From positions 1 through 36,568 of IMG/VR virus record IMGVR_UViG_3300009156_000055: a stretch of 36,568 nucleotides of DNA. One strand, written 5' to 3'. The notes under the pieces were generated by a model that did no database searches, was not told the origin of the DNA, and saw only the letters and a list, made by a program, of their open reading frames with translations. This DNA comes from a virus. Below, piece after piece: positions 4,400 to 35,628 of the stretch (its first letter is position 1; every line of letters starts with the position of its first letter). A program made the translations under genes and the position numbers.

Positions 4400-4400
4400 C

Positions 4401-7422: not shown

Positions 7423-7738
7423 CCCCGCCGGGATCACGCTCGTCAATGCCACTCATGACCTTGATGTAGATCTCACGAGCGTTGCGGTGCCCCCGGAGGG
7501 CTCGATCTTGACTTGCCTGATTGGTGTCAGTCATCCAGTTCTGGAATAGGAGTCCGACGCGGGCAGTGTATGCGGCCTCTACCCCGCGCCGGTCGAGTCG
7601 ATCGAGTTTCTTATCGTACTTGGTCGGTTTGAGGGGCGGAACGCCCTCGCCCGGGCTTTGATCACTGACAACGAGCATCAGGAAGAAGGCTATTCCAACG
7701 GCTATGATAAAGGCTATTAGGGGTCCAAGGTACTTCAT
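7394..7738 (-). CDS. One-TM protein, candidate spanin or holin
   Basis: This 114-residue product starts with MKYLG followed by a single hydrophobic helix at about residues 5-26, with no lipobox Cys. The rest is charged and helical. Topology (short N-terminus, one TM, soluble helical tail) and its position directly after the endolysin gene fit an inner-membrane spanin, or less likely a pinholin. Its ATG overlaps the endolysin stop as ATGA. It is the last gene of the minus-strand block and overlaps the end of the plus-strand ATPase gene by 29 bp. Function is inferred from position and topology only. Confidence 0.6.
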   Translation of the reverse strand: MKYLGPLIAFIIAVGIAFFLMLVVSDQSPGEGVPPLKPTKYDKKLDRLDRRGVEAAYTARVGLLFQNWMTDTNQASQDRALRGHRNAREIYIKVMSGIDERDPGGATLEDQLAR

Positions 7739-8514: not shown

Positions 8515-8843
8515 TCGACTACCGAGACTGTCCCGAGGATCAACGAAGTGATATCTGTATCGGTTTGAAACACCATAATCAGTTTATAAAGCTTGGGCCG
8601 TAACGCGAACATAGCTGGCGCTTCGACGCGCCACTGCACGATCCCGGGCGCGGGCAGGGTGATACTCCCGCCGCGCATAGTAATAATCAACTCGTCGAAC
8701 CGACTGAGCTGGTCCTGGAGCCTCAAGATGACATCGACCACCCCCGAGAAGTCGTAGAGAGTATCGTTATCGATGCTCCACACTTCCACAGTCTCTACCC
8801 AAGTACTGTAGATCGATGCGGGAGGGATTGATCCATCTAACAT
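8511..8843 (-). CDS. Small probable tail/baseplate structural protein
   Basis: The 110-residue product starts at an ATG preceded by AGAGG and overlaps the endolysin start by ATGA. It is predicted to be mostly beta, with a DLYDFSG-like acidic segment, then VDVILRLQDQLSRF, and a strand pattern ending in ILGTVSVVE. That pattern resembles small phage tail and fibre-attachment proteins that precede or follow fibre genes. No catalytic motif is present. Role as a fibre adaptor or minor tail protein is inferred from its place between the collar/fibre gene and lysis genes. Confidence 0.55.
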   Translation of the reverse strand: MLDGSIPPASIYSTWVETVEVWSIDNDTLYDFSGVVDVILRLQDQLSRFDELIITMRGGSITLPAPGIVQWRVEAPAMFALRPKLYKLIMVFQTDTDITSLILGTVSVVE

Positions 8844-8852
8844 CTTGGACCT

Positions 8853-10085: not shown

Positions 10086-11481
10086 GAGCGCCTCCAATGA
10101 CAGTGGCGGGATCTACATCAGTCCCAAGATTGTTGTTTAGGTTCTTTGTCGCGAGGTTAAACCCCACTATCGCGGCGTTACCGCCAGAGCGTACTACCCG
10201 TTCATAGGCCCGGGACCATGCGGCCACACTTGCCGCGAGCGCGGGCGAGGTCAGTGCATGGGCAACCACCTTAACTGGGATCATGGTGCCGAGCACCGCG
10301 AGCGGGGCGGCTATAGCTCCTGCCCCAGTGATGCCTCCAACGGCAGCTGCTCCTACGGCGGCTTTAGCCATGGTCCCGGCCGAGGGCCCTCGCCATGTCG
10401 GCGCGCGCTCGGCGACCTCTGCGATACTGTCCAGATGGTGCCTCAGCGAGCCCGAACCGCCCTGCCCAAAGAGGATATTCTTCGAGGCCTCCGGCAGTTC
10501 GCCATAGCGACGGACAAAGTCGCCCGCGCCGAACTCTCCGACCTCGTTCTGGCCCAGGTGCTGGACCAACTGAGCCTGGACCTCGCCCTGCTTCTTGGCG
10601 GGGGTTAGCTGGCGCATCCGCGCGAGCGCGGCAAGGTCCTCTGGCGTGCCAGTCCGGGCCATATTGGCCATTTGGGCTATGGCGTCTTCAGCTGGCTTAT
10701 CTGTCACAGTGGTCAGTCGGGGCGGCACGGGACCAGTAGAACCCGCGATCCGACCCTGGAGCATCTCGCCGGTAGCCCCAACTTCCGCACCAGGCTCGAT
10801 CCCGCCCTTAGAGATGGCCTTACTCAGCGCGGCCCCGCCTCGCATAGCGGCGATCCCGGGGGCTACTGGCCCACCAAGGGCCGCAGCCATGGCGTTTTGG
10901 GGCTCCTGAAGTTCGCCTCCAGCGCTCTTAAGGAACTGACCGAAGCCCTTTTTTGCGCCCGCAACCCACTCAGGAATTAGATTGCTGATCGCGTCCGTAA
11001 CTGGGCCCTCGGTTCGTCCAGTGGTTCCGCGGCTAACGCGGATGGCTGCGACTTCTCGGGCCTGCTCGGCCGGGTCCTGGGACAGTGTCGTGCCCTCGAG
11101 GGGCGAGGGCTTTTGCGCCTTTGGCGTATAGGGCTTTGCCCCGGGCGGAAGCGTGTCCAAGGGATGAGGGTCCTCGACTAGCCGTGCGCCAGCGGGAAGC
11201 GTATCTCCCGCGTCCGCTGCATATGGCTGTTGCGTGTCACTTTTTGGAGTACCGCCCCCTGCCATCGACAGAACCTTGGACGGATCGCCGAAACGCTCTC
11301 GCGTACCGGGCGGGGCTATCCTCGGCGGGGGCTGTCGCTGTTGCTCCTCGATGTAGTCACCGACTGGGTCAGAGCTGAACGGAGCAAAGCGCTGACGGAA
11401 GGTGTCCACAGAGGGATCAACAGGGTTTAACCTGCCCCACCGAGGCTCATTTGGCTGCAGATAATCAAACTCTCTGGCCAT
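10066..11481 (-). CDS. Probable internal virion/ejection protein (471 aa)
   Basis: The protein starts at ATG 11481, sharing bases with the preceding stop (TAATG). Residues 1-150 are Pro/Arg-rich and disordered, with two near-repeats of the DTLPxGA type. The middle is helical and Ala/Gly-rich. Around residues 375-425 there is a long Ala/Gly/Val hydrophobic segment able to form one or two membrane helices. Such a segment in a large protein next to two other Ala/Gln-rich proteins suits DNA-ejection proteins that form a channel across the host envelope. There is no lytic transglycosylase motif. Assignment is from context and composition. Confidence 0.6.
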   Translation of the reverse strand: MAREFDYLQPNEPRWGRLNPVDPSVDTFRQRFAPFSSDPVGDYIEEQQRQPPPRIAPPGTRERFGDPSKVLSMAGGGTPKSDTQQPYAADAGDTLPAGARLVEDPHPLDTLPPGAKPYTPKAQKPSPLEGTTLSQDPAEQAREVAAIRVSRGTTGRTEGPVTDAISNLIPEWVAGAKKGFGQFLKSAGGELQEPQNAMAAALGGPVAPGIAAMRGGAALSKAISKGGIEPGAEVGATGEMLQGRIAGSTGPVPPRLTTVTDKPAEDAIAQMANMARTGTPEDLAALARMRQLTPAKKQGEVQAQLVQHLGQNEVGEFGAGDFVRRYGELPEASKNILFGQGGSGSLRHHLDSIAEVAERAPTWRGPSAGTMAKAAVGAAAVGGITGAGAIAAPLAVLGTMIPVKVVAHALTSPALAASVAAWSRAYERVVRSGGNAAIVGFNLATKNLNNNLGTDVDPATVIGGARGKPVE

Positions 11482-13154
11482 TAGCTGTATGGCTCCCGCT
11501 TACCGTTCCGAATGATAAACAGTTTACCACCTACATCAAAGATCTTACCTTCATCTTCAGCAGTGATCTTCCGCGCGGTGGCTGGAGCCGCCGCAGGAGC
11601 AGCTGTATCGGGCGCAGTCGTAGCCTGGTTACCACCAGCTATATCCAGAATTTCCTGTCCTTTTTTAGTCGGTTGGCCTGTTGTTGAGTCAACAAAGAGT
11701 GGGTTCTTATCAGCATAGTCACTTAGGGCTTCGTTGACTCCCCAAGATGTAGCTCGGAGAGGATTATTCTTCATGTAGTCACGAGATACCTTAGAAGCGT
11801 TCCTATCATAAACAGCCATCTCCCGAAGGTGTCCAATGATCTTCTCGATACCGCCGGGAGTCTGCAGTATTTGTGGAAATATCTTTTCAACGAACGATCT
11901 ATCAGCGTCGGAAAAGGACTTACTGAAGCTTCCGACGTGCGCCATAAGAGCCTGGTTAGAAAGGGAAGTGAACTCTTCGTTGAGCATAGCGGATTGCTGA
12001 GCTGACTTAGCAAAGGTTCCAAACCTATTCTTAAACTGAGTTGGATCAACTCCAAGTATCTTTAGCACCGATAGTGTCTCATTGACAGCCGCAGCATATT
12101 TATTGGCAGATGCTCCAGATACAAAGTCCTTGTCTTTGGTAAGCGCACTCATTCTATCGAGCGTAGAAATCAACTGTTGGGATTGTCCAGCCCTCTTTTC
12201 AGTATCAAGATAGATCTTCTCCGCTTCTTCTATTCTCTTTGGAGCCTGTTGAAGTTCCAACTTGTAATCACCAAAGCTAATATCAGGCTTACCAGCTTGA
12301 CGCCGTGAAATCCTTTCTTCCATCCAACTCTGTTGTTCTTTGTCTAGCTTAAGCTTACCCATAGCATCTCGGAAGCGCTCCATAAGAGCCCGCCCCGGGC
12401 CACTGGTCATCAACTGCCGTGGCATACCAGACAAGGCCTGTCCCACCGCAGCGGCCTCAGCCTGGGCATCGGCCTGGTATGCAGGCATCTTGATCGGGGT
12501 ATTAGGATCTGTAGCTGGCTGAGGGGCCGCCTGCGGAGGCGCTGCTCCAAGAGCCGGAGCTGCCGCAGCATTGAGCGTCTCCGCGCTCATCACTGGGGTC
12601 TGTCCCGGCAGTGTATTCGGAGTGGGCGGAGGCCCAGCCAATTGCTGTGGCTGTGGCTGTGCAGCGCCCTGCTGAGCGGCAGCTATGATGGCGTCACTCG
12701 GGCCGGGCTCGGCCGCAGCCTGTTGTGGCCCTGTCGGGGGAAGGGCGCTTTGCGGTTTCACTCCCGGAATAGCTCCGGGTGGGCCCTGGAACGGGTCGGG
12801 AGCAGGCGTCTGTGGCGCCGGAGTCAGCGGGATGTTAGGGGCTTGCTCCGTCGGGGCTGCGCCCCCGCCACCCATCTTGGGATACACAAATTTACTCAGG
12901 AAGTCTGCCTGTAGGGCATCCGCCGCGCCCTTTTGGGTCAACTGCCGACGCGCAAGCGCGGCCGCCTGGAGCTTCAACCCGGCCTCCATCTGGCCCGCGG
13001 CGAGCAGCTGCGATGCCTTCCTCTCCAGTGAGTCTGGATCGGTGCTCTTGAGGTCCGCAAGCGTTTCCTTCAGCGTAGCCCTATCCCGAGCCGCTCCCGC
13101 GACGGAGGGGAGGGCCCCGAGCAGACTGAAGTCCACATTAAAGTTGTCGGCCAT
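11481..13154 (-). CDS. Probable internal virion/ejection protein (557 aa)
   Basis: The start ATG 13154 follows TAGGAG by 6 nt; a TTG two codons upstream is less likely. Residues 1-90 are helical, about 90-245 are a Pro/Ala/Gln-rich low-complexity linker, and 250-500 are a long charged helical region. A short beta tail (KIFDVGGKLFIIRNG) ends the protein. The base usage changes within the gene: the helical part is visibly more A+T-rich on reading than the Pro/Ala linker. With its two neighbours it forms the three-gene ejection-protein block typical of podoviruses. No enzymatic motif was found. Confidence 0.6.
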   Translation of the reverse strand: MADNFNVDFSLLGALPSVAGAARDRATLKETLADLKSTDPDSLERKASQLLAAGQMEAGLKLQAAALARRQLTQKGAADALQADFLSKFVYPKMGGGGAAPTEQAPNIPLTPAPQTPAPDPFQGPPGAIPGVKPQSALPPTGPQQAAAEPGPSDAIIAAAQQGAAQPQPQQLAGPPPTPNTLPGQTPVMSAETLNAAAAPALGAAPPQAAPQPATDPNTPIKMPAYQADAQAEAAAVGQALSGMPRQLMTSGPGRALMERFRDAMGKLKLDKEQQSWMEERISRRQAGKPDISFGDYKLELQQAPKRIEEAEKIYLDTEKRAGQSQQLISTLDRMSALTKDKDFVSGASANKYAAAVNETLSVLKILGVDPTQFKNRFGTFAKSAQQSAMLNEEFTSLSNQALMAHVGSFSKSFSDADRSFVEKIFPQILQTPGGIEKIIGHLREMAVYDRNASKVSRDYMKNNPLRATSWGVNEALSDYADKNPLFVDSTTGQPTKKGQEILDIAGGNQATTAPDTAAPAAAPATARKITAEDEGKIFDVGGKLFIIRNGKREPYS

Positions 13155-21074: not shown

Positions 21075-21647
21075 TTATCCTCCTAGTATCCCGTTCTCGA
21101 AGAAGTCCTTATACGTGAACCCTGGCTTTGCCGGGGGCGGGACCATCTGGGACTGAAGCCCTGCGAGCGTTTGGGGCTGTGCCGATGTATAGGGCACACT
21201 CCCAACAGCTCCCGGACCTGGAGCACCGATCCGTGTCCACCAGCCCTTGTCAGGTCCCTCGATGCCAAAGCGTTCACCTCCGGCAGCGTAGGTCTGGGGA
21301 CCACCAGCGAAGCCTACCGTGCCCGAGGCATTGCCTGTAGCGTAGTTGGTTATGTTCGAGCCTCCAAGGACGCTTTGTACCACTGGATCATACGCGGTCC
21401 GAGTGTTTTGATCTACCCCGCGCGCGGCACGCTGATGAGTCACCCCCGGGAAGTACTCCCCAGACAACACATCGGCCAGCGACTTTCGCCGAGCCACAGC
21501 CCGATTGAGCGTGGTCTCGATGAAGGCCTGCCATGCCTGTGGCCCTTGCCCACCGACCTCGGCCTTGGTATAGGCCAGGAGCTTGTCCCGGACCTGAGGG
21601 TCCTGAAGCTCTTCCGCGAAGCGTCTTCGTCCGAGATCATCTGCCAC
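21075..21647 (-). CDS. Putative virion peptidoglycan hydrolase-like protein
   Basis: The 190-residue product starts at GTG 21647, with GGAGG at ideal spacing inside the portal end. Its N-terminal domain has KAEVGGQGPQAWQAFIETTL, recalling the E-containing helix of SleB-like or lysozyme-type cell-wall hydrolases, followed by GTVGFAGGPQTYAAGGERFG and a GWWTRIG box. The C-terminus is Pro-rich. It could be a virion-borne lytic enzyme for infection. No transmembrane segment is present. Confidence 0.45.
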   Translation of the reverse strand: MADDLGRRRFAEELQDPQVRDKLLAYTKAEVGGQGPQAWQAFIETTLNRAVARRKSLADVLSGEYFPGVTHQRAARGVDQNTRTAYDPVVQSVLGGSNITNYATGNASGTVGFAGGPQTYAAGGERFGIEGPDKGWWTRIGAPGPGAVGSVPYTSAQPQTLAGLQSQMVPPPAKPGFTYKDFFENGILGG

Positions 21648-23703
21648 TGGTACCTCCAGCGGGTTTGGGCTTCTGGGCGGCCTGCTTCAGCATCATCTGG
21701 TGCTTCTGCTCGCCCTGGACCAGGGCCTGTTGACCCTTCAGTTCATTGTGCCGCAGATCCTGTTGACCCTTCATAGCGTTCAGCTGAATGTCCTGCTGTC
21801 CCATCTGCTGGGTAGACTGAAGCTTGCTGAACTCGGTCGAGGCCTTGATCTGCGCCAGTTTCTGTGCGGATTGGACCTTCATGACGCTTTCCTGCATCTT
21901 CATCCCGTGCTCTTGCTGTTTCATAGCCAATTCTTGCTGTTTTTCACGGGGATCGTTGCTCTGGGCGGCCTCCTGAGCCTTGGCTATGTTGAGGGCGGTC
22001 TTGGACTTCGTTTCATCGACCTTAGCCGCCTCACCAGCGATCGTAATGGCCTTAGCCTGCTCAGCCACAGGATCTTTCTGCTCCAGAAGAGCCAAAAGCT
22101 TCCGCTTGAGCTGACCTTGTAGCGGAGCAAGCTCAAGTAGGATCTGTGGAGGTATATTAGCCCCTTGAGCGGTGAGGGCGACCAGCGTGTCATAAGCATC
22201 TCCCATCATGTTGACCTCATCTGGGCCCTCATCCAGGGAGAAGTTGACATCTAGCGTCCCAATCGAGTTCACGAGCCGCGGAAGCCCGTATTCATCCACC
22301 CCTACACCGTTGACTTGCACCAACTGCGCGAGTCCCGCGTCGTCTGTAACCCGAATATAGCGCTCAGCGGTCCAATATCGCTGCACAGCGTTCCAAATAG
22401 CCCGATAAAGACGCAGTTTCCAGTTCTTTATGCCTATAACGAACGGCCCCAGCTCGGCGATACCTGCTTGTTGGAGCAGGTTGATCGCGCGTCCGGACTT
22501 GTACTCGAGGCCCTGACCTATTAGGGCCGGGCTGGGGCCGAAGTTCTCGATCTCGTTCTTCGCATCCTCTAGGAACTTGATTTGGCCTTCGATGTTAGTG
22601 ATGCGCGCTGCATCATCGAACTCCATCTCGAAGCCCTTGTTGTAGATAACCACACCGTCCGGTCGAATGGCCTCCCGCCGAGTAACTTCAATATCAGCAA
22701 ATGCTCCATCTTCCGCCTTGATCCGGCGCGAAACCAGCTCATGTAGGCCTTTCGAGCGGCGCTGGTTGATCTCATCCTGGGATGAACGTAGATTACGGAC
22801 GAAGCCATAGCGATCACCGTCATGATCCACGAAGCTGGAGAACATGATATACTTGCATATCATATCTCCCTTCTCATTGTAGAAGTAGCCCTTGCCCTCG
22901 TCGATCTTCATCGAGCCCGTGAACAGGCACCACTTCCACCCTTTTCCACTCTTGTACCAGATATCCACTACCCGCAGGCGCTTATGCCGAGAGTCCACGT
23001 CAAACCAGCGCCTCTCCCGTTCCGGGTTCGAGGTCAGGTCCGCGCCGTCGCCCTCCATCAGAACCCGCATCTCCTTCGCGGTCTCCTCGTCGGGCGCGAG
23101 CAACACAGCATCCTCAATGTCGAGCCACTTGCCCTGACCCATGAACCTTGCATCGGCGAAGTCATGATCGTAGGAGCGCACATCATAGAAGAAACTGTCC
23201 GTTTTGACGAGGGCGAACCCGATATCCTTGTCGTCCTTGTCCCCTTTGACGAGCATCATCTCGACGCCGCCAATACCATCCACAGCAGCGTTCTCGGTAG
23301 CGAAGGGGAAGAGCGACTCGCGGAGATCACTCTCCACCACATACCTGACCACTGCCGTCGCCAGCTCGGCACCCATCTCATCCTGATCTCTCGGGGTCTT
23401 TGGGTAGGCCTTCGGGTCCTGCTTGATCTTCTCCATCAGCCCAATGATCGAGTCAATCTTACGCCCGATCCTGTTGTACGTCACCACAGGCTGTTTGCGT
23501 CGGTTGAAGACCTCCACCTGATCTGCGGTCCACTGAGCCCCATGCCGGTATCCCCGAGCGTTCTTCTGCTCTAGGATCTCGTCGTGCTTCGAGGCAATGT
23601 AGTCCAGATAGGACTGCTTGCAACGACGCAGCTCCCAATAGCCCTCGTCGTCAATATCGCTATCATTGACCACATAGTCATCTTTATATGCTGCGATGGC
23701 CAT
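21637..23703 (-). CDS. Portal protein (P22-like)
   Basis: The 688-residue protein matches P22-type portals in length and order: YRHGAQWTADQVEVFNRR near residue 50, VVTYNRIGRKIDSIIGL at about 73-90, and GGVEMML and SFFYDVRSYDHD later in the N-terminal half. A Gln/Met/Lys-rich long helix from about residue 560 to the end resembles the P22 portal barrel that extends into the capsid. Its ATG overlaps the repeat-protein stop as TGATG. It is unusually far from the terminase genes because of a 10-kb inserted block of tail and glycan-facing genes. Confidence 0.88.
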   Translation of the reverse strand: MAIAAYKDDYVVNDSDIDDEGYWELRRCKQSYLDYIASKHDEILEQKNARGYRHGAQWTADQVEVFNRRKQPVVTYNRIGRKIDSIIGLMEKIKQDPKAYPKTPRDQDEMGAELATAVVRYVVESDLRESLFPFATENAAVDGIGGVEMMLVKGDKDDKDIGFALVKTDSFFYDVRSYDHDFADARFMGQGKWLDIEDAVLLAPDEETAKEMRVLMEGDGADLTSNPERERRWFDVDSRHKRLRVVDIWYKSGKGWKWCLFTGSMKIDEGKGYFYNEKGDMICKYIMFSSFVDHDGDRYGFVRNLRSSQDEINQRRSKGLHELVSRRIKAEDGAFADIEVTRREAIRPDGVVIYNKGFEMEFDDAARITNIEGQIKFLEDAKNEIENFGPSPALIGQGLEYKSGRAINLLQQAGIAELGPFVIGIKNWKLRLYRAIWNAVQRYWTAERYIRVTDDAGLAQLVQVNGVGVDEYGLPRLVNSIGTLDVNFSLDEGPDEVNMMGDAYDTLVALTAQGANIPPQILLELAPLQGQLKRKLLALLEQKDPVAEQAKAITIAGEAAKVDETKSKTALNIAKAQEAAQSNDPREKQQELAMKQQEHGMKMQESVMKVQSAQKLAQIKASTEFSKLQSTQQMGQQDIQLNAMKGQQDLRHNELKGQQALVQGEQKHQMMLKQAAQKPKPAGGTSGR

Positions 23704-26555
23704 CAGTGTCGTCCTATGATAACGCGGCCCTGACGTGGCCTTCTGATCGAGTAGTCAGACAGCATTCCGTGTCCAATAGGATAGGTATAGCGCGGGTCGT
23801 GCGGGAAGAACGGCTCGAACAAGGTGTCCGCATCGGTCATCTTCGAGGCGCTTATAAACTGATCGTATACCAACTGTGGCGTAAATAGCCGATCAGCGTC
23901 AGAAATCAGGTTCGGAAAGAGTTCATTTCGCTGAACAACCGTCGGCGAGTAGAAAGTACTCGTATCCGCGAAGAATACTGGATCAACCTTAGAGCCGACA
24001 CTCGGCATTCTAAGAATATCAGTATCCACAAACGGGAATGGACTGATGTTGACCGCAGACACTGTCAACGCAGGCGCAAAGAATACATCACTATCAACAA
24101 ACAGCACAGGCTGGATGTCGGACACGGCCAGTACGACCGGGTTGAATACAGCGTCCGCGTCGGTGAACTTCGACGGGCCGACAAACAGCCCTGTAATCGG
24201 ATCAAAGAACACGTCCGTATCAGTGAACGTCAGCGGAATGACATTGACTGTCCCGGCGGCGAGCGCGGGCACAAAGAAGTTATCCGCGTCATTAATCCTG
24301 CCAGCCATTGTGGGCTGTGCGCCGCCACCAGTGACCAACGCCATCCTCGGCGAGTCACTATCAATAAACAGCGTGGGCGTGATATTGACTGCGCCTACGG
24401 CCAGCGTCGGATTAAAGAAGGTATCACTATCAGAGAAGAAAGTGGGAACTACTAGTTGCCCTTGGGCTGGCCCGCGGATAACCACAGTGACCGACATCGG
24501 CGGAGGTACATAGCGTCGGTTCTTGATCAGGGGCGAACTGTCGGACTCGTGATAGATACGCTTCAGCTCACCGCCAACTACCGTCGGGCTGTAGTGGGTA
24601 TCACTCTCGGCATAGACAGCCGGAACCACTATGAATTGACCACCACCAATACCTACGCTAAAGATAGTATCCGTGTCGACATAGCGGCCTCCCGGTCGAA
24701 TATCCAGATTTCCACTCCGAATAACGACCGTAACTGACATAGGCGGAATAAACCGCCTGACGATGATCCGTTCCGAGGCCGCGGCATAGGTATTGACTAT
24801 TGGAGACGTACCGATCCCCTGAAGAGATGGCCCATAAAACCAGTCAACGTCAGTTAACAGCCCCGGGGTCGCTCCGACAGTTCCCCCCACAAGTGAGGGA
24901 CTATAGAAACTATCGGCGTCCCCGAAGAAGAAAGTCCCGAAGTTATATATAACCGCGATACTAGAGAACGCATCAGCGTCAACTAGTAGGCTCGGTGTCA
25001 GGGCCCGCGTCGCGGCAAGCCCCGGAACGAATATAACATCACTATCAATAAAGAATACTGGCGCGGTCTGCTTCAGTGTCGAGACTAATGGAGCGAAGAA
25101 CGTATCACTATCGATTATCAAAGGCTGGGCAACAGATACACCCCCGACGAAGCTGGGAGCAAAGACTCTGTCAGTATCGATGAATAGGCCCGGTCGCGGC
25201 CCAATCAGCGGACTAAAGAATACGTCCGAGTCCGCGAATAGCGTCGTAGTAAACCCTGCACCGAAGTTAGGCGCAGAGAAGATATCACTATCAACGAACA
25301 GCGAGGACAGTACAGCTGTTGTAGTACTTAGACCTATAATAAAGAACGTATCAACATCGTTGAAGGAGTTCTGGGCCAGTAGGTTTTTGCTGGTGCTGAG
25401 CGTCGGCCCAAAGAACGTGTCACTATCAGCCAGTCGCTGGGGCGTGACTATACCAGCATTAGGAATTGTAAAGGTCTGAATAACAGACGAGTGAGGTATC
25501 CTTCGTCGTCGATAGAATGCGCTCGCCGCGGCATAGGATGGGTACGAGCCCAGCGCGACCGCGGGACTATACCAAGCGTCGGTATACGGAATAAGATTAG
25601 GCGTGATCGACAGCACCTGGCCCGCCGTTGGACTGGACCAGCTGTCCGCATCGGAGATCTTGCCCGGTGTAAGCCCTATAGTCGATCCTAGCGCGGGACT
25701 AATAAAGCTGTCTGCATCAGAGATCAGCCCAGGCGTAAGCCCCGTAGGAGCCCCTGGCTGTTGCCGAGGAATATCGATAACCTCGCCAATAGGCCTAGAT
25801 CGATAGACATATAACGGCGTCATCCCAGCTTCGGCTATACCCGGGAAGTCTCCAGAAAGGGCCGGGGCACTGTACGTATCATTGTCTGTATATTTTCCGG
25901 GAGTCAGGGTCTGAGTAAGATCAGCCTTGAATGTAATGACGCCCAGCACGTCATTGGTAGGAGTGGTTCCAGTAAACTGAGAACTCACAGTAGTTGTTGC
26001 TGTTACTCTCTGATGAGAGAGCATCGCATGAGAGTTAGCTTGGAACGCACTAACAGTAAACGTAATCGAAGTAGACCAAGTAGAATTGACGTTAGAAACA
26101 GCCCAAGACACTACAAGCTCAGAGGCCTGAGTCAAGGTGCCAGTCAGAGGGGCAACATAGGGCGTAGTTACGTCAGATATATTAGATGGACTTCTATCTA
26201 CTGGAGAGACAACAAACGGCCCCTCGAATACCGCAGCTACGCACGAGAAGTCATTTGCGCTCGCGGTGGCCGCGATAGTGACCGTCGTCAACGATCCAGC
26301 CACTGTTACCCGAGAATAGAACAGCCTACCCGAGATCACCCCGCTGAGGGTTCCCGCGTTCTGCGCAGTATAGGTGTTACCAAGATTGTCAGTGCAACCG
26401 GAGGCTGTCAAAGCAGTCTGCTGGGCCATCAAGGCCACAACAAGATCACCCACCGCCACAGTAGTCGCGGTGTTCAGGGTAATGGCGTTACTCGCGAGGA
26501 TACTGGCCCCGCTCGAGGCGCCCGTACCACCAGCTTTGAGATCGCCAAAGGCCAT
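23703..26555 (-). CDS. Giant repeat protein with about 27 DxD/FFxP units
   Basis: Residues 1-210 of this 950-residue protein form a beta-sandwich-like domain (GDLVVALMA, AASANDFSCVAAVFEG). Residues 217-918 contain about 27 tandem units of 18-28 residues with the core (L/F)xDxDxFFxPxL, such as FVDSDVFFAPAL, FIDTDRVFAPSF and LISDADSFISPAL. Four units have longer inserted arms with Arg pairs followed by IPP or IPH, two of them sharing PPMSVTVVI. A solenoid or fibre, possibly calcium-binding through the acidic pairs, is inferred. It lies between the GH9-like protein and portal. No catalytic motif is seen. I recognise this repeat type only loosely from phage tail-like proteins. Confidence 0.75.
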   Translation of the reverse strand: MAFGDLKAGGTGASSGASILASNAITLNTATTVAVGDLVVALMAQQTALTASGCTDNLGNTYTAQNAGTLSGVISGRLFYSRVTVAGSLTTVTIAATASANDFSCVAAVFEGPFVVSPVDRSPSNISDVTTPYVAPLTGTLTQASELVVSWAVSNVNSTWSTSITFTVSAFQANSHAMLSHQRVTATTTVSSQFTGTTPTNDVLGVITFKADLTQTLTPGKYTDNDTYSAPALSGDFPGIAEAGMTPLYVYRSRPIGEVIDIPRQQPGAPTGLTPGLISDADSFISPALGSTIGLTPGKISDADSWSSPTAGQVLSITPNLIPYTDAWYSPAVALGSYPSYAAASAFYRRRRIPHSSVIQTFTIPNAGIVTPQRLADSDTFFGPTLSTSKNLLAQNSFNDVDTFFIIGLSTTTAVLSSLFVDSDIFSAPNFGAGFTTTLFADSDVFFSPLIGPRPGLFIDTDRVFAPSFVGGVSVAQPLIIDSDTFFAPLVSTLKQTAPVFFIDSDVIFVPGLAATRALTPSLLVDADAFSSIAVIYNFGTFFFGDADSFYSPSLVGGTVGATPGLLTDVDWFYGPSLQGIGTSPIVNTYAAASERIIVRRFIPPMSVTVVIRSGNLDIRPGGRYVDTDTIFSVGIGGGQFIVVPAVYAESDTHYSPTVVGGELKRIYHESDSSPLIKNRRYVPPPMSVTVVIRGPAQGQLVVPTFFSDSDTFFNPTLAVGAVNITPTLFIDSDSPRMALVTGGGAQPTMAGRINDADNFFVPALAAGTVNVIPLTFTDTDVFFDPITGLFVGPSKFTDADAVFNPVVLAVSDIQPVLFVDSDVFFAPALTVSAVNISPFPFVDTDILRMPSVGSKVDPVFFADTSTFYSPTVVQRNELFPNLISDADRLFTPQLVYDQFISASKMTDADTLFEPFFPHDPRYTYPIGHGMLSDYSIRRPRQGRVIIGRH
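23802..25907 (-). repeat. Tandem protein-coding repeat array (about 27 units)
   Basis: The DNA encoding residues 217-918 of the giant protein. Units are 54-80 nt long with a conserved middle like (GTN)GAYNNNGAYNNNTTYTTY. DNA copies are diverged, so the repeat is best seen in translation. It is a feature of the gene, not a mobile or CRISPR repeat. Confidence 0.8.
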
Positions 26556-26558
26556 CTA

Positions 26559-29500
26559 TCACATCGCGAACGAAGAGAACTGATATGGATTAGGTCCGGG
26601 CGGTGGAGCAGTCCCCACTACGACCTGGGCCAGCGCGGCCGAGCCGCTTTGAGCGAAGGTAACATCTCCCGAGTAGAACGCTGTTATACTGTGTGTTCCA
26701 TCACTGAGTGCCGTTGTACTGAATGTAGCCACGCCCGCGGCCAGTGTTCCAGAGCCGATCGGACTTCCACCATCCCTGAAGGTCACGGTGCCCGTGGGCG
26801 GACCTCCAGTCCCTGTGACGGTCGCAGTGAACAGCACGATCTCGCCGGTATCACTAGGGTTATTATTCGAGATAAGAGTGACGTTAGTAATGGTCTTAGC
26901 GGTTTCATCCCAAGCATCCAGATAGAATGCCACGTTCTGCAGCGGAAACACATCCTGTTGTACTGAGCGCTCCATCAGATTTAGCTGGAAATGCGACTCC
27001 CATACAGCCTCGTAGACTGGTGCTGCATAGCGTCCCGGGATAACCTCGCGCTGGGCGTTATGATCCGCAGCATAATTTGGATCAGGCCCCTCAACGCAAC
27101 CCGCGTTAGAAGCAGGGCTCCAAGTACCAAAACTAAACAGCCACTGGCCGATAAAGTGAAACATATAACAGCCGATGCCAGAAGCACACTCTGACCCAAA
27201 CATCAGATTATCCATATTAAAGATAGTACCAGGCCAGCGCGTGCCTACCTGGGCAATAGAAGTCATTCCAGACATATTGGCCCCGCAGATAAAGGCCATG
27301 CCGTCCTGAAGAACCTGCAAGTAGCGGGAGTCTCCAGAGACCGCGTGCGAGGCTATAAAGGCCCAGTGATACCCCGAGATATCAATACCCTCAGAGCCGA
27401 TATTAAATTGATTATTATCAGCAACCATCATCGTTCGACAAGCCGAAATCGGCTTTGGAGTAGTAAATATCTCTAGACCAGCCTCGATCCTGCCATAACA
27501 GCCCTTAAACGTATCTGCTATAACAGACTTTGCCGCAGCATTAATTCCAGGGGTCTGGTGGTATTCCCACGCAGCCAGTGGCCTTCCACCGAAACAGTCG
27601 AACCATATGTTATTAGGGTTTCCTCCGCCATAACCCAGATCCGTTTCAATAACAGTTTTGTAGACTGCAAGACCAGTAAGTCTATAGAGTACTGCAGCAG
27701 CATTAGTCCGCGCGATCCCAGAATTCCCCTCATTATTCAGAGTTGCAAGATTATTAACGTAGGTAGTATGGGTCCACGGAGTTCCGCTCCAGGGTGGGTT
27801 AGTGGAGGCCATTCGGGCCTCGAGACCAAGCACCCCATTATAGTAATTATCTTGCTCAGTGAAACTCCCAAATAATAGCTCGGCCCAATTCCATGCCTTT
27901 ATAGCACTATTCTTCCACATATCTCCAGCGGCGTTGAAGCCATAAGCATAGAACACCTGAGCTATCTTACCTGCCCCGTGAGCATAGTAGAAGTTACTCA
28001 TCTGATCAGGGGCATTAGCGTAGTTAACGCTCGGGCTGAGATTAGAGGGCGTAAAGGAGGTGCCAGTACCCGTATCCATCATCAGTCCGCCGGGCACAGA
28101 GCCCTCAGGCAGGAACGAGCCCGCCCCGTGCTGCATCCGACGATAGCCCTCCAGGCCAAAAACGGCCTGGGTAAACATCTCTGGGAGGCTGTTGGTCCCG
28201 GCATACTCCGGCACTGTCGGGAACATTTCCAACAGCTTTGGCAGTCCATAGGCCGTACTGGCGGCCTTCTGCGGCCGCATCAATACTAATTCACACCAAC
28301 TATAGACCGCGCCCGTGACCGAAGCGAGTCGCGTACACCAGTCACCTGCGTCAGCCCAAGAGCCGCCGCCCGCGCCGTATCCAGACTGATACCAAGTGTA
28401 AGGCGTGCCCGTGGGGAAGAACCACTCAGGCCGCGCCGCTATAGCATCATTAATCTGCCCATTTATACCAAACAGTGGTGCGCCCCAGCCCATAGGATAG
28501 GGCACCTTACTCTGATAGATCTTGCCTTGGTTGCCTCCCGCAGTCACCCCATCAGTAAAGTTTTGTGGGCGTGTATAGCCAAACCGCCCGTCTAGGGCAA
28601 TGCCCCACCTATGATGATACTCGCCCCCGGCCATGATCTTAGCAAGATCATTCCAGACAGTCGATCTTACCGGGAACGGATCAGATACTCCCAGCCCAGC
28701 GATCCTCAGCCTATAATTGCCCGCGGTCGAGGTCGTGAAGGTAGGAAATTCCAGCCCATAGACATTGGTTCCAGCTCTATTATTCTCCTGTAGCTCTACA
28801 ACATATCCCTTACCACTTCTAGAGTGCCATGGAGCGTACGGTGGAAGATTATCCCCTCTAACGGGCACCCCAGTGCCAAAGTCAATGGCAGTAAACTGAT
28901 TTGGCGCGGGGACAGTATCTACTCTAATACTAGCATGAGTTAGCTGGAAAGGTCCATCATCTCCACCCATGTCTTTCAGTCGCAACCGCTTTCCAACAGC
29001 CCATCCATGGTTAGTTGCAGTAGTGAACACGGCGGGATTAGCCGCGGTCATAGCCGTGATATTCTGCCGTTTTGCGGGATTAGTGCTGTCGAAAGCAGAC
29101 TTCCCGTCGGCACTACTGTATCCACTCGTAATGTTATCAACCGGGATACTAACCCGTTCTTCGGCCTGGCCCGAGGCTATTCGCAGCACAATCGGAAACG
29201 GCCCGCCTACAGTGGTCCCCACGTTGTTGATAATCTCGAACTGAGTGAAGGCCGAGTAATCGACCGCGCCCTCGTTAGGTGCCCCTGGCATCCAGTGCGA
29301 CAAATAAGCAATCTTGCCTACATCATCCGGCCTATACCCTATCTGATTGACATTAATAGCCAGTGCCCGCGTCGAGCGATCGTTCCACGTCAGATTGGTA
29401 CTGATACTCGCCGCGGAATTAACGATAGCATAAGGCCCGCCCTGGGCCAGAGGCCCATCCAGCTTCAGATAAAGGTGATGTTTCAAAGAAGAGGTCTGAC

Positions 29501-30122
29501 CAAACTGTCCCATAAAGGGTAGATCAGCGTAACCGTGGTCGTAGTTTTTTGACTTGATATAAACCGCAATAACTGTTCGTCCCCCGAACGAGGCCCAGTT
29601 AGCTGGATTTGTTGCCGCAGTCCGATCAAGGAATGCGTCAGGCTCGAGATCGCACGACCTAAAATACTCCTGATTAGTCCCGGCCAACCAGCCTCTTCGT
29701 CCCGCCGGGGCAAAGGTAGTCCACCTAGAATAATCCCAGACCTTACCCGTGCCCGGAGTCCAGGTCCCTGTGAACCGCGTCGCACAGAGGTCAGCTGTAT
29801 CATTATTGATCCTGAGAATATCCCAAGACCCATTACAGTTAGGAACTCCAGCTACCCCAGTAATGCCGACAGTCCCCGCTGAGCCATCATTTATGTTGAA
29901 ATAGAACGGAGCAAAGACGTTACTGCCCGTACAAGTAATACGGATAGACCCATCTATCGGACTAGAAGACACATTTGTTATGGTGACTGCAGCAGATGAA
30001 GATGCAGCTATCGATACCCCACCGTTGCTGAAGATCTGCCCATGCGTGATAGCACCGTCCCGCGCCTCCACGCAGACAGTATCCGGTGAAACCATAGTTA
30101 CTTCTTTAACTGTAATAGGCAC
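26559..30122 (-). CDS. Very large GH9-like virion glycan hydrolase with Ig domain
   Basis: This about 1187-residue protein has an N-terminal beta domain, then a CelD_N-like Ig module (INVNQIGYRPDDVGKIAYL), an inserted tail-fibre-type module (AVFTTATNHGWAVGKRL), and an alpha-rich catalytic-like region with DAGDWC at 591-596, the hallmark of glycoside hydrolase family 9. A bacterial Ig-like domain follows near the C-terminus (TGTVTFRDGGSPIGSG, YSGDVTFAQ). The general-acid Glu was not pinned down. GH9 enzymes cut beta-1,4-glucans, so a depolymerase for host exopolysaccharide is plausible. GTG 30122 fits best after the upstream stop (in-frame ATG 30095 and TTG 30146 are alternatives). The start SD is weak. 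Confidence 0.65.
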   Translation of the reverse strand: MPITVKEVTMVSPDTVCVEARDGAITHGQIFSNGGVSIAASSSAAVTITNVSSSPIDGSIRITCTGSNVFAPFYFNINDGSAGTVGITGVAGVPNCNGSWDILRINNDTADLCATRFTGTWTPGTGKVWDYSRWTTFAPAGRRGWLAGTNQEYFRSCDLEPDAFLDRTAATNPANWASFGGRTVIAVYIKSKNYDHGYADLPFMGQFGQTSSLKHHLYLKLDGPLAQGGPYAIVNSAASISTNLTWNDRSTRALAINVNQIGYRPDDVGKIAYLSHWMPGAPNEGAVDYSAFTQFEIINNVGTTVGGPFPIVLRIASGQAEERVSIPVDNITSGYSSADGKSAFDSTNPAKRQNITAMTAANPAVFTTATNHGWAVGKRLRLKDMGGDDGPFQLTHASIRVDTVPAPNQFTAIDFGTGVPVRGDNLPPYAPWHSRSGKGYVVELQENNRAGTNVYGLEFPTFTTSTAGNYRLRIAGLGVSDPFPVRSTVWNDLAKIMAGGEYHHRWGIALDGRFGYTRPQNFTDGVTAGGNQGKIYQSKVPYPMGWGAPLFGINGQINDAIAARPEWFFPTGTPYTWYQSGYGAGGGSWADAGDWCTRLASVTGAVYSWCELVLMRPQKAASTAYGLPKLLEMFPTVPEYAGTNSLPEMFTQAVFGLEGYRRMQHGAGSFLPEGSVPGGLMMDTGTGTSFTPSNLSPSVNYANAPDQMSNFYYAHGAGKIAQVFYAYGFNAAGDMWKNSAIKAWNWAELLFGSFTEQDNYYNGVLGLEARMASTNPPWSGTPWTHTTYVNNLATLNNEGNSGIARTNAAAVLYRLTGLAVYKTVIETDLGYGGGNPNNIWFDCFGGRPLAAWEYHQTPGINAAAKSVIADTFKGCYGRIEAGLEIFTTPKPISACRTMMVADNNQFNIGSEGIDISGYHWAFIASHAVSGDSRYLQVLQDGMAFICGANMSGMTSIAQVGTRWPGTIFNMDNLMFGSECASGIGCYMFHFIGQWLFSFGTWSPASNAGCVEGPDPNYAADHNAQREVIPGRYAAPVYEAVWESHFQLNLMERSVQQDVFPLQNVAFYLDAWDETAKTITNVTLISNNNPSDTGEIVLFTATVTGTGGPPTGTVTFRDGGSPIGSGTLAAGVATFSTTALSDGTHSITAFYSGDVTFAQSGSAALAQVVVGTAPPPGPNPYQFSSFAM

Positions 30123-30123
30123 T

Positions 30124-30861
30124 TTACGGACCCCACACAGCTTCAACTAGAAGATTTCCGCCGTAGCCAAAGTCATCGCCAGGGTTCACAGACGAGATCG
30201 AGGGAGTTAAACTCCCCGCGGTGACACTGTGAGCCATGCAAAAGAAATTACCAGTGCCACTTTCATAAGACCCAGGAGTACTAACCCCGTCATCAACCAT
30301 TGGAGGTGTTGGCGACCATGCTGGCGTCAGCACGGGATGCAACCTTCCAAAGACAACACACGCCCCGCCCGAAGGAACAGTGATCGCGCTCGGGAAAGTG
30401 TGCGGGTCCCAGCCAACTGACTCCTGGAAAACTTGTGTTGCAGTTGGAGCACCCGAACACCCCACCAATCTACCTACCATTATCCCGCCATGATCCCCAA
30501 CTACATCTATAGTAACTACAATAGTGGCGGTTGTCCCGGTGGGCCAGGGCTTATACCAGATAGACAAGTTATTATTGGTAGCTCCTACCGCAAGAGTCAT
30601 AGCATTACCATCAATCGTGACTCCGGTCATAACTCGTATTGCTGTAGCCCCAGCGCATACAACTACAATTCTGTCCGACGCGGCCGCACCAATACTCACC
30701 CCGCTAAACGTGAAAACTGAGTCGGCAAAGCTCGAGGTAATCACCGCCGGGGCTGCAGTCTTAGTAAAATCCAAAGCACTGCCCGTGGGCCCGGGCGAGG
30801 GCACAGATCTGCCGTAGCTCAGCGCGGGACCAATCACTCGTCTGCGGCGAAGCAGTGCCAT
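30124..30861 (-). CDS. Beta-sandwich tail/spike protein (245 aa)
   Basis: The product starts with an Arg-rich MALLRRRRVIG, then a Gly/Ser/Thr-rich beta domain with segments VVVVCAGATAIRV, TATIVVTIDVVGDH and VPSGGACVVFG. The pattern matches a small jelly-roll or concanavalin-like domain common in phage structural proteins. Its basic N-terminus is shared in style with the next gene upstream (MSLIKRKLMGP). The start overlaps the previous stop as TGATG. It appears part of the tail appendage cluster. Confidence 0.55.
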   Translation of the reverse strand: MALLRRRRVIGPALSYGRSVPSPGPTGSALDFTKTAAPAVITSSFADSVFTFSGVSIGAAASDRIVVVCAGATAIRVMTGVTIDGNAMTLAVGATNNNLSIWYKPWPTGTTATIVVTIDVVGDHGGIMVGRLVGCSGAPTATQVFQESVGWDPHTFPSAITVPSGGACVVFGRLHPVLTPAWSPTPPMVDDGVSTPGSYESGTGNFFCMAHSVTAGSLTPSISSVNPGDDFGYGGNLLVEAVWGP

Positions 30862-32216
30862 CAGTACACGTTATTCCCTATTGCAGTCTGGTAAGTATTG
30901 ATCCTAGCCATTATTCTCTGCATTTGAGAACTAAATGCCTGTGCCGCGCCAAAGGTTCCAGCCGCTATCTGAAAAGCATTATTCCCGAATAGCATAGGGA
31001 ATGCTGCGTTAAAGACGCCACTCGGCGAGGCCGTGACCGTGCCCGCGCTACTACCGTTCTTCCATCGCGTGAAATCAGTACTACTTGTACGCGAAACCGC
31101 GTACTGGCCCTGGACGTTAGTATTGGCAGCTCCAGTAGAGTCAGTCGCCAACATCTGCGCATACATATTACCAGCATAAAGTGGTACTATAAAACTGTCT
31201 ACGAGCGTTCCATTAAGAATTACCGCTGGAACACCAGTTCCTACTGCATCATTAGTGGTAAGATAGCACAACATATAATTATTGCCGCTGGTACCAAAAT
31301 TATAGCCAGTATTAATATTAGGATTAAACTGCGTACTAAGAACTGACGAAGCGCCTCCTGTATAACCATGATCTGCAACGAAAGTGCCATCAGCAGGACC
31401 AGTCTCCACCAAATTAAAGTTATTCTGCTTGATATTAGTCTTGCTAGTGGCAAAGTCGGCCCCAGCTATCATATAAAGTCCATCTATACGCAACCAATCT
31501 CCATCATTCACTAGTCCCATAATAAGATCACGATAGGCCGTGGCCCGTGCCGTAGTCGGCGTCGCGATGCGATCAAAGAACTGTTTAACGGCATACGCTT
31601 CTACAGAACCATAGCCAAAAGCCTCTATCTTTGTAACTGAATAAAGGTTCGATCCGTCATCGTTATTCATAGTATCATTTGTTACCGAAGCTGTATCACT
31701 AGCAGGATAAGTATAAAAGTGTCTAAAGCCAACAACACTAGATCTTAGTCTAACCTCACTACTAGTATGATGCATAGAAACAACCAATGATCTGCTTCCA
31801 TCATGAGAATAGGCTACAGCATCACTTGTTATAAACCCTCCTGACGAAACACTTCCACTCGCACTCCCAGAGAACAGCACCTGCACTTGAGTACCATCAA
31901 AGTCGTAAATATCCCCACTCGTCGCGCCATTACCGATATAGAGTTTATCCCAACTCAGCGTCCCAGATGCCGGGGCCTGTAGCGTTATCTTGAGTTGTGT
32001 ACCGTTATTAATTCTATCAAAGCCTCCCCCCGAATAAGGAAATATAACCTGCCTGTTTGTAATTCCTGTCCAGCCAGAACCATCAAGACTACCACTAGTA
32101 CTAAGCGAACGCTCGAACACGGTGAACCACGCAGCCGTGGCCGGAGCAGCAGTATAATACGTCCCCACACTAAACGGGAACGAGGGCCCCATGAGCTTAC
32201 GCTTAATCAGACTCAC
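30861..32216 (-). CDS. Tail appendage protein (451 aa)
   Basis: The start is GTG 32216, overlapping the preceding stop (GTGA). The N-terminal residues are basic (SLIKRKLMGP). The middle is Ser/Thr/Gly-rich beta with DNSH-like patches, and the C-terminal 150 residues (YAVSRTSSTDF, RWKNGSSAGTV, FPMLFGNNAFQIA) resemble LamG-like or lectin-type tips of phage tail proteins. The base composition seems more A+T-rich by eye than the head genes, possibly indicating recent exchange. A receptor-facing role is inferred. Confidence 0.55.
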   Translation of the reverse strand: MSLIKRKLMGPSFPFSVGTYYTAAPATAAWFTVFERSLSTSGSLDGSGWTGITNRQVIFPYSGGGFDRINNGTQLKITLQAPASGTLSWDKLYIGNGATSGDIYDFDGTQVQVLFSGSASGSVSSGGFITSDAVAYSHDGSRSLVVSMHHTSSEVRLRSSVVGFRHFYTYPASDTASVTNDTMNNDDGSNLYSVTKIEAFGYGSVEAYAVKQFFDRIATPTTARATAYRDLIMGLVNDGDWLRIDGLYMIAGADFATSKTNIKQNNFNLVETGPADGTFVADHGYTGGASSVLSTQFNPNINTGYNFGTSGNNYMLCYLTTNDAVGTGVPAVILNGTLVDSFIVPLYAGNMYAQMLATDSTGAANTNVQGQYAVSRTSSTDFTRWKNGSSAGTVTASPSGVFNAAFPMLFGNNAFQIAAGTFGAAQAFSSQMQRIMARINTYQTAIGNNVY

Positions 32217-33009: not shown

Positions 33010-33342
33010 TTAATGGCCTTTACGTTTGTCGCCCAGGCCGGAGAACATCTCATCAGTCAGAATGAGTGTTGGACGGATCACCTGGTCGAACGGAATGACC
33101 GAGCGCCTTCGGCCGGTCACTGGATCGTAGTGCTCAAGGAGCACCTCCATACTCTTGCCGAAGAGTTCCTTCATGCGTGCCTCAACCTCGCTTCGCAAGC
33201 CGTAGTTCTGTCGGAGGCAGTTCGCGATGATATTAATACTCGCGGACAAAACCTCCTCGATCGAGCGTCCGTTCGCGGCCCTGACAAAGGCCTCAAACAG
33301 ATCGCGGCCGACCTCGGGCTCGCGGAGAGGGTCTTTAGGCAT
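33010..33342 (-). CDS. Helical hypothetical protein (110 aa)
   Basis: The protein starts MPKDPLREPE and is largely helical and charged (EEVLSASINIIANCLRQ, RMKELFGKSMEVLLEH), ending in a basic tail. Its start overlaps the end of the S74-domain gene by 8 nt. It resembles small helical accessory proteins encoded next to terminase genes, but no family was recognised. Confidence 0.5.
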   Translation of the reverse strand: MPKDPLREPEVGRDLFEAFVRAANGRSIEEVLSASINIIANCLRQNYGLRSEVEARMKELFGKSMEVLLEHYDPVTGRRRSVIPFDQVIRPTLILTDEMFSGLGDKRKGH

Positions 33343-33970
33343 CGAAAACAGCCCCGTAATTGACGTGGAGCAACCCCTGGAAGCGGCGAACTGCCCTTGG
33401 GAAGTGTTTTAGCACCTCCTGAGCGATCAGACCCACCTCCAGGGGAGCATCTGGCCTCCTGTAGCGGTACTCGTAGAGGCCCAGGGGGCCGTAGTCGCCA
33501 ATTCTTCGGATATCGTGCTTCGCGCGCGCGTCGGACAACTGGAAGATGCCCGAGACGTTCCACGTCACAGTGATATTGCCCCCGTTCGGGGTCACTGGGA
33601 GCCCGCCGCCTGCGGTGTCGTAGTACGACATGAGCCTCCAGGTGGTATTCGCGCCCGTGTTCTTGCGATAAATGACCAGGGCCTCCACGGAGTTCCCACT
33701 TACAGCCGTATAAGTGAGGTCCCCTCCATCAAATACCCCGTCCGTACTCGATACCGTTGTAGCCGTGGGCGTTATTCGTTGATCAGTGCCCACAATGGCA
33801 TTGGGCGAGGTCAGGGTGGTCGCGTAGAACTGGTGCGTTGCCGCGTAAGTATAGACGCCAGTGTCCACGAGCGCGCAAAACGGACCCAGAGTAGCACTGT
33901 CAGTGATAGACGAGTCCGCGCTCGCGTCCATCAGAGCCTTTTTCCACAACGGATACAGAGCGGGAGCCAT
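33335..33970 (-). CDS. Virion protein with C-terminal S74/IMC-type domain
   Basis: This 211-residue protein joins a phage structural N-terminus (PALYPLWKKALMDA and ATHQFYATTL segments) to an intramolecular-chaperone-like peptidase S74 domain. The S74 domain starts with SDARAKHDI (Ser146, Lys151), continues with YEYRYRRP and ends with VGLIAQEVLKHFP at about 179-191. The Ser-Lys pair required for self-cleavage is present. Such domains help fold trimeric tail spikes and then detach. Here the spike part is short. The start follows AAGGAGAT with 5-nt spacing. Confidence 0.75.
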   Translation of the reverse strand: MAPALYPLWKKALMDASADSSITDSATLGPFCALVDTGVYTYAATHQFYATTLTSPNAIVGTDQRITPTATTVSSTDGVFDGGDLTYTAVSGNSVEALVIYRKNTGANTTWRLMSYYDTAGGGLPVTPNGGNITVTWNVSGIFQLSDARAKHDIRRIGDYGPLGLYEYRYRRPDAPLEVGLIAQEVLKHFPRAVRRFQGLLHVNYGAVFDA

Positions 33971-33985: not shown

Positions 33986-35449
33986 TTAATAGACAACCCA
34001 GTCGCCGGGACCGGCGAGTTCTCTGGTGGTATAGCCGATCTTAATGGCCTTAGTTTCGACCTTTTTCACGGGCGAGAAAGGCCTCGACATGCACGCGTAG
34101 CGCCACTCGTCCGCGGCATGATCTTCGCCCTCGGTATTCACGTCTTCCATCTTGGTTACGTCGTGTTGGAGGGCTGGGATAGTGCGGATACTTGCCGCGC
34201 ACGTGGCGAAGCAATAGATCATAGGCAGCTCGTCGAACCCAACGAGCCGCGCACGCATCTGATCCCAGCCCCCCATCGAGCCCCGCTGGGGGACCCGAGC
34301 GTTGTCCGCCGCGTGGAAGGGCCGCCGCTTATGCCTGATAAGGACCTTGTTCATGCGTTCCGCTATGGAGGGGCCCCCATCTTCCCTGAAGCAGGCCGGG
34401 TCGAGCACCCCATAGCGCAAGGTCTCCTGGTCCTCGCGCTCTGAGATGCCTTCTGCTACCTCTTCTGCGGTCATTTTCAGGCCGATGTTGATCGAGGCCG
34501 CACCATACCACTCCCTATACCGCACAATAGCGCCGCGTGGGAGCACTCTCCCATCAGGGACCTTATAATCATCGCTGACAATAGCCCACCAGCCAACGCT
34601 GAAGGGTCGGGCTGATCCCCAGTCCATCGACCTAAAACGCGCCCATTCTCGTGGAATACTAAATGGGTCTGTGACATGTTTATCGTATCTCCAGCAATCA
34701 AAATACGCGCCCTCGATTACGGTCCAGTCTCCTTCGAGCCACGCTCGGACCATGGAGTCGCTGGACAGTCCTCTTAACCTGTCCGCGTAGGTCGGGTCCG
34801 AGGCAAGGAGAATTTTGTTATCTCGGAGTTTCGCCGGGATAAATAGTCGTCGGTGCTTGGTGACTGGGTCGAGTATGGGCTCATAACCTCCAGGCGCAGG
34901 ATCGACAAAGTAGGCCTTGACCCAGTGGTGACCGACACCTCCCGGATTTGCGGCAGCTCGTATTCGCTTGGTATGGATATTGTGAGCCGACCGCAGGCGG
35001 GCTCGTAGGAAACGGTAGCCGTAATCGGTAGGCCACTGGGTAAGCTCATCCCAGCCGATCCATGTGTAAGCGTGTCCCTGGTATCGTGTGGCATCGTGGT
35101 CCCTCTCTATGTACCGCATCCTGAGGCTGGCCCCGTTGGCCCAGGACCAGGTTTTGGCCTGCTCGTGCCAAGAGCCTCCTGAGATCGGGAATATCTCTCG
35201 AGCGCGGCGTAGTAAGTCCTCGAGTTCGTTGTAAGTTCTGCGGAATACCACTCCCTGCCAGTACTGACCGTAAGTTGGTACATCTTGAAGAAAATCGCCG
35301 AGGAGAAAGTCACTTTTGCCCCCTCCCGCCGCGCCCCCATAGAAGAGTTCGGGGCACCAGTCGGCCGTGATCGCGTCAGTTTGCGGGCCGGGCTGAGGGC
35401 TCCACGCGACCCCGGTCGGGCTCTCCTCTGGGCGGACCTTGGGCCTCAT
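33986..35449 (-). CDS. Large terminase subunit (TerL)
   Basis: The 487-residue protein begins at ATG 35449, which overlaps the mini-protein stop as ATGA; a longer in-frame start at 35590 would put the whole mini-protein in another frame inside it. Walker A YGGAAGGGKS has Lys45; Walker B WDEL has Asp134 and Glu135. The RNase H-like nuclease has DWGSA (Asp276), VLDPAC (Asp350) and HAADE (Asp447). It powers DNA packaging at the portal and cuts genome ends. All expected motifs are intact. Confidence 0.92.
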   Translation of the reverse strand: MRPKVRPEESPTGVAWSPQPGPQTDAITADWCPELFYGGAAGGGKSDFLLGDFLQDVPTYGQYWQGVVFRRTYNELEDLLRRAREIFPISGGSWHEQAKTWSWANGASLRMRYIERDHDATRYQGHAYTWIGWDELTQWPTDYGYRFLRARLRSAHNIHTKRIRAAANPGGVGHHWVKAYFVDPAPGGYEPILDPVTKHRRLFIPAKLRDNKILLASDPTYADRLRGLSSDSMVRAWLEGDWTVIEGAYFDCWRYDKHVTDPFSIPREWARFRSMDWGSARPFSVGWWAIVSDDYKVPDGRVLPRGAIVRYREWYGAASINIGLKMTAEEVAEGISEREDQETLRYGVLDPACFREDGGPSIAERMNKVLIRHKRRPFHAADNARVPQRGSMGGWDQMRARLVGFDELPMIYCFATCAASIRTIPALQHDVTKMEDVNTEGEDHAADEWRYACMSRPFSPVKKVETKAIKIGYTTRELAGPGDWVVY

Positions 35450-35628
35450 GGGCTCACTGTCCAGCCCCCGCACCAGTCCGTTGGCGCGGGCGAGGGCCAC
35501 ATAGTCGCGGGATACGCGAGCGCGCTCAGCTGGGAGAGGATCAGGTAGGGCGGGCCCTTCCGACAATTTCCAGCCATGTAGAAGGCGCACGTCGAGCAGG
35601 ATTGACCACTGGGCGGTCTAATAGGCAT
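35446..35628 (-). CDS. Cys-rich mini-protein (copy B) between terminase genes
   Basis: The 60-residue protein begins MPIRPP and has CSTCAFYM, then NCRKGPP and WCGGW. Its spacing of CxxC, C-x3-PP and WCG matches the mini-protein at 1514-1735 (CKDCFYH, CHRYPP, WCGEY), implying two members of one family. It overlaps both neighbours: TAATG with the small terminase stop at 35628-35630, and ATGA with the large terminase start at 35449, strong support for translation. The cysteines probably bind zinc. It might assist terminase or be an unrelated accessory. Confidence 0.65.
   Translation of the reverse strand: MPIRPPSGQSCSTCAFYMAGNCRKGPPYLILSQLSALAYPATMWPSPAPTDWCGGWTVSP

Follow-up and report, generated by a model that had tools for sequence, protein, structure and literature searches.

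A GH9-family protein in the TerL-portal cassette of a tailed phage, most likely captured from Hyphomicrobiales and probably directed at host exopolysaccharide

The window analyzed here (36,568 bases) is a whole IMG/VR virus record and carries a terminase large subunit (TerL) and a P22-type portal, both matched by family searches, with a cassette between them that comprises a fibre-type gene, a repeat-protein gene and a long gene for a GH9-type protein (Table 1), along with small genes. The GTG start of the GH9-type gene is positioned 1 base after the stop of the upstream gene and is preceded at ~8 bases by GGGG. Its dN/dS was 0.16 vs. a 63%-identical phage and 0.05 vs. a 99%-identical phage, and the gene is therefore a real coding sequence that is maintained under purifying selection. 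Within the protein, an insert at residues ~336-440 interrupts the CelD_N-type Ig domain and is common only to phage and Hyphomicrobiales proteins in a 27-sequence alignment. No signal peptide was found in the window protein, the start of which coincides, by eye in the alignment, with the mature N-terminus of its cellular relatives; these relatives display a hydrophobic leader ahead of it.

Table 1. Features of the GH9-type protein and of the cassette around its gene.
Feature	Position	Strand	Remarks
GH9-type protein	26559..30122	(-)	1187 aa, GTG start, intact ORF
Phage-specific beta-rich insert, residues 35-125	29748..30020	(-)	By alignment in 3 phage proteins, absent from cellular relatives
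N-terminal beta domain, residues 126-250	29373..29747	(-)	Common to Hyphomicrobiales GH9 proteins
CelD_N-type Ig domain, residues 251-486	28665..29372	(-)	Family match and alignment
GH9 (alpha/alpha)6-type catalytic domain, residues 487-1075	26898..28664	(-)	Profile and predicted fold
DAGDW, residues 591-595	28338..28352	(-)	D591, D594: expected GH9 aspartates (nucleophilic water/base), from alignments
E1051, candidate general acid	26970..26972	(-)	Just before last barrel helix; alignments and models
Big_3_5 Ig-like domain, residues 1085-1168	26619..26870	(-)	E 1e-20; cellular relatives lack it
Terminase large subunit, cassette boundary	33986..35590	(-)	Family match
Fibre-type protein with Peptidase_S74 endosialidase chaperone domain, first cassette gene	33335..33970	(-)	Family match
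451-aa protein	30861..32216	(-)	No family match; possibly lectin/fibre-like
245-aa protein	30124..30861	(-)	No family match; same cassette
950-aa DSDxF-type repeat protein, last cassette gene	23703..26555	(-)	Ends PIGHGMLSDYSIRRPRQGRVIIGR(H)
P22-type portal, other cassette boundary	21637..23703	(-)	Family match

Comparison with the sister phage L010 revealed 61-68% identity for the 451-aa, 245-aa, GH9 and repeat genes vs. 95-99% for most head genes. In phages with 72-78% TerL identity, the TerL-portal slot is occupied by unrelated large proteins of the fibre or repeat type, and in more distant phages and prophage relatives the portal follows almost directly after TerL. Judged from these comparisons, the cassette appears to behave as a receptor or adhesin module whose proteins would reside in the virion, and the GH9-type gene is encoded in just such a variable receptor/fibre region as would be expected of a virion-associated depolymerase. 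The repeat proteins encoded immediately upstream of the portal keep the same C-terminal motif and differ in their repeats; this motif, P[I/V/T]G..(S/A)DY(G/S)IR...IGR, recurs in 33 locus records, some of them overlapping (window 23703-26555 on the minus strand, and L101-L121), and is possibly a virion-attachment or processing signal. In a related phage (L120, 3120-5950), a glycosyltransferase family 9 gene occupies the slot, accompanied, by eye, by another glycosyltransferase-like and a methyltransferase-like gene. Elsewhere in the window, a ParB N-terminal domain is fused to an N6/N4 DNA methylase (2073-3368, plus strand), and a uracil-DNA glycosylase is fused to a weak PolA-type 3'-5' exonuclease domain (3368-6205, plus strand) ahead of a separate family A polymerase gene; we read the latter pair as a putative split replication polymerase with a uracil-DNA glycosylase.

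A preliminary description of this DNA had likened the protein to cellulase family 9 by virtue of a CelD_N-like Ig domain, a DAGDWC motif and a C-terminal Ig domain. All three are present: CelD_N matched residues 255-304 of the phage protein alone at E 8e-5 (23.8 bits, just under the cut-off of 24.6), DAGDWC occupies residues 591-596, and the C-terminal domain is of the Big_3_5 type. Because PF00759 had no match in the window protein scanned alone, assignment to the family had to go through intermediate sequences; with the phage protein as sole query, NCBIfam and PHROG searches likewise returned no GH9 call and nothing useful, and phmmer against the PDB no match. In a plasmid collection, tblastn identified an Aminobacter protein annotated as GH9, with 28% identity across residues 133-1068 (~935 aa, E 1e-64), and this relative scored 57 bits against PF00759 (cut-off 27.7). 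A genome scan for relatives yielded 79 loci, comprising 24 from Hyphomicrobiales or Hyphomicrobiales-like genomes (L012-L035) and 55 from cyanobacteria, Planctomycetota, Verrucomicrobia, Armatimonadota and others. Among the 27 aligned sequences, PF00759 matched 24, namely all of the cellular relatives scanned, and failed on all three phage proteins (the window protein, L010 and L011). The profile from this alignment matched 13 distinct sequences in the PDB, all GH9-family enzymes (best 6e-37), and an hhalign comparison with two GH9 sequences that score strongly against PF00759 gave E 1e-38. The resemblance to GH9 was thus confirmed by way of intermediates, and we regard membership of the phage protein in GH9, by ancestry and fold, as close to certain.

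The predicted fold strongly supports an (alpha/alpha)6 barrel like that of solved GH9 structures, and the alternative that the preliminary description had named as contradicting it, a fold devoid of this barrel, was not obtained. Two AlphaFold models, of the whole protein and of residues 126-1080, reached a pTM of 0.70 and 0.78, respectively, and their leading Foldseek matches were all GH9. With VIA-align, the two models matched CelD at Z 22.2-22.9 (480-491 residues aligned), and the first row of another family (GH76, Z 13.8) comes after 42 rows of GH9. The active-site loops, in the D591/D594 and E1051 regions, were modelled at pLDDT <50, so the geometry of the pocket is tentative.

The two aspartates of the DAGD-type motif (D591 and D594) and a C-terminal Glu (E1051), as expected of GH9, were invariant in 36/36 aligned sequences, including phages of two unrelated lineages. 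The catalytic Glu had been left unresolved in the preliminary description, which proposed a search for the triad by structure prediction; a conserved candidate did emerge from the alignments. We consider this Glu most likely to be E1051, which MAFFT aligns with the Glu of NEIAINWNA in a canonical GH9 (the last hhalign segment is ambiguous there) and which, from the structural end-points of the predicted models, falls within one residue of the place of E555 in CelD. Two other residues were rejected, as E1038 (D in one phage and one bacterium) and E1042 (mixed E/D) are less conserved and lie 9-13 residues further than E1051 from the last barrel helix. Some conserved subsite residues have changed in the phages of the 36-sequence alignment, with H969 replaced by N in two phages, R973 lost and D596 replaced by C in two phages; vs. 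its cellular relatives, the window protein carries H969N, R973L and D596C. In the window protein, IFNMDNL stands in place of the PLHEDHR-type motif seen in the relatives. A His/Arg substrate-binding motif near the C-terminus is usual for GH9, not strictly defining, and because the motif varies in cellular relatives as well (the His is missing in 6 of 33), its loss does not decide GH9 membership. As a measure of background, we took the 87 columns with 95% conservation among the cellular proteins; all three phages keep 40 of these, and the window protein keeps 63. Conservation of the triad appears to go only modestly beyond this background, and, given such high background retention, triad conservation alone was rejected as proof of catalysis.

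The viral contigs matched were four near-identical copies, the 63%-identical sister L010 and a 26%-identical relative, L011. The latter is a genuine tailed phage with a head module unrelated to that of the window (TerL phrog_15, portal phrog_21, protease phrog_53); its GH9-type protein (7563-11813) keeps, by eye, a twin-arginine-like leader (SRRMLLKAF...), which suggests a secreted rather than a virion form in that phage. A profile-derived scan found no further viral members, tblastn of the phage protein had no match in 50,697 phage records, and a search for relatives of L011 returned L011 itself as the sole match. Among the viral structures listed from BFVD, there was no convincing match to the GH9 fold (best TM-scores ~0.1).

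The closest cellular relatives, of which Aminobacter WP_268738182.1 (annotated glycoside hydrolase family 9) is one, are 28-31% identical to the phage protein and share with it the domain order of residues 126-1075, the Ig insert and the D/D/E triad; they differ in having an N-terminal leader and in lacking both the insert at residues 35-125 and the Big_3_5 domain. A homologue of the Wzy/O-antigen-ligase gene of Aminobacter is found near the GH9 gene in 24/24 of the Hyphomicrobiales-type loci vs. 0/55 of the other GH9 loci, and most of the former also harbor flippase, export, tyrosine-kinase-like and glycosyltransferase genes. By gene content, these relatives sit in Wzy-type exopolysaccharide (EPS) clusters, not in cellulose-degradation loci, and for this reason the cellulose or beta-glucan substrate suggested in the preliminary description is not supported. 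In many genomes the EPS cluster (L006, L012-L035) comprises a nonribosomal peptide synthetase with a MupA/Atu3671-type luciferase-like monooxygenase and a phosphopantetheinyl transferase, and it is conceivable that its EPS bears an unusual amino or hydroxylamino decoration. In a tree of the family, the phages, on long branches, fall together with Hyphomicrobiales, and a split with full support sets both apart from the other phyla. Based on this split and on the insert at residues 336-440, the phage gene was most likely captured from a Hyphomicrobiales GH9. A Hyphomicrobiales host for the window's phage would fit with relatives of its portal in prophage-like loci of Methylorubrum and of five more genomes from that order, without this being proof.

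Taken together, we think it reasonably probable that the protein is an EPS-degrading, or at least EPS-binding, receptor protein derived from a captured Hyphomicrobiales GH9; its catalysis, polymer, place in the virion and host are what we infer. We surmise that a tailed soil phage took a GH9 gene from a Hyphomicrobiales EPS locus and fitted it into its host-recognition cassette. The protein, lacking a signal peptide, would become part of the tail or, less likely, be set free at lysis, with the N-terminal insert specific to the phages and the Ig domain at the C-terminus serving in attachment or carbohydrate contact. The GH9 barrel would then bind the host's Wzy-type EPS or capsule and cut its backbone by the inverting GH9 mechanism, with D591/D594 activating water and E1051 as the acid, thereby opening a path to the cell surface. 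In a more general form, which we put forward tentatively, phages may have domesticated the EPS-cluster hydrolase of their own hosts into a virion depolymerase by removing the leader and adding phage domains, in at least two unrelated lineages, in which case the cluster would name the receptor polymer.

The main rival to this proposal is that the protein is a catalytically dead GH9 scaffold which acts purely as a polysaccharide-binding receptor protein. The subsite changes H969N, R973L and D596C, the low-confidence active-site loops in the models and the failure of PF00759 on the phage protein are in keeping with such a loss, but D591, D594 and E1051 have been kept in all three phage proteins, which are divergent and come from two lineages with unrelated head genes, along with a majority of the strongly conserved cellular positions in the window protein (63/87), and we therefore hold a dead scaffold to be unlikely. 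An auxiliary metabolic gene, whose product would be a free enzyme aiding the host during infection in the use of beta-glucan from plants or soil, would find precedent in viral GH9s with carboxymethylcellulase activity (PMC10465536) and in those reported in sediments (PMC8725595). However, an auxiliary cellulase would be a secreted enzyme close to the cellulose-degradation GH9 of the host, whereas the window protein has no signal peptide, sits in a fibre/repeat-protein cassette with content that turns over between relatives, and has its closest cellular relatives in EPS synthesis loci rather than cellulose utilization loci; this role seems improbable. Even more doubtful is a soluble depolymerase freed at lysis, aiding lysis or the release of progeny from EPS instead of entry. 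Family searches did find no known phage anchor domain in the protein, but virion-borne receptor proteins are a better fit to a variable cassette that also encodes an S74 fibre protein and, in addition, a repeat protein whose terminus is conserved.

As for known systems, the CelD_N-Ig GH9 enzymes (Clostridium thermocellum CelD 1CLC, CbhA 1UT9, BoGH9A 6DHT and endoglucanase 3X17) resemble the phage protein in the Ig domain plus (alpha/alpha)6 barrel, the DAGD motif and the C-terminal Glu; they differ in that identity over the aligned structure is ~15% and that the phage protein lacks the conserved His/Arg subsite motif and carries extra domains. GH9 xanthanases show that the family is able to cut bacterial EPS (PMC10881899), and one of them, PspXan9 (6FHJ/6FHN), matched our models at Z 19, albeit as a secreted bacterial catabolic enzyme and not a phage protein. 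Earlier studies described virus-encoded GH9 genes from the rumen (PMC10465536) and the Mariana Trench (PMC8725595) as auxiliary metabolic genes, the rumen virome enzyme showing carboxymethylcellulase activity and 79.5% identity to a rumen bacterial GH9 (PMC10465536); while the preliminary description deemed such an enzyme rarely expected in phage virions, viral GH9 is thus not unheard of (PMC10465536, PMC8725595). Compared by description, those genes differ from the one in the window in that they were read as cellulases for host metabolism and that no tail or receptor cassette was reported around them. With phage capsule/EPS depolymerases (tailspikes), the GH9-type protein would share cleavage of a receptor polysaccharide from a variable host-recognition slot. 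Known tailspike depolymerases have mostly beta-helical or other folds, among which a GH9 barrel is unusual.

Within the part of the literature covered, we came across no description of a GH9 from a receptor cassette or tail of a phage, none of a GH9 of Hyphomicrobiales EPS loci, and nothing relevant on GH9 in Rhizobiales EPS loci or unipolar polysaccharide clusters. If our proposal is true, the GH9 barrel would join the folds used by phage receptor depolymerases, acquired by a direct route in which an EPS-processing enzyme is captured from the host itself, and the receptor would be the polymer of the GH9-Wzy cluster, which is widespread in Hyphomicrobiales (Methylobacterium, Mesorhizobium, Aminobacter, Rhizobium and others). 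The phage finding also draws attention to a GH9 that is conserved in the EPS clusters of Hyphomicrobiales and is apparently undescribed there.
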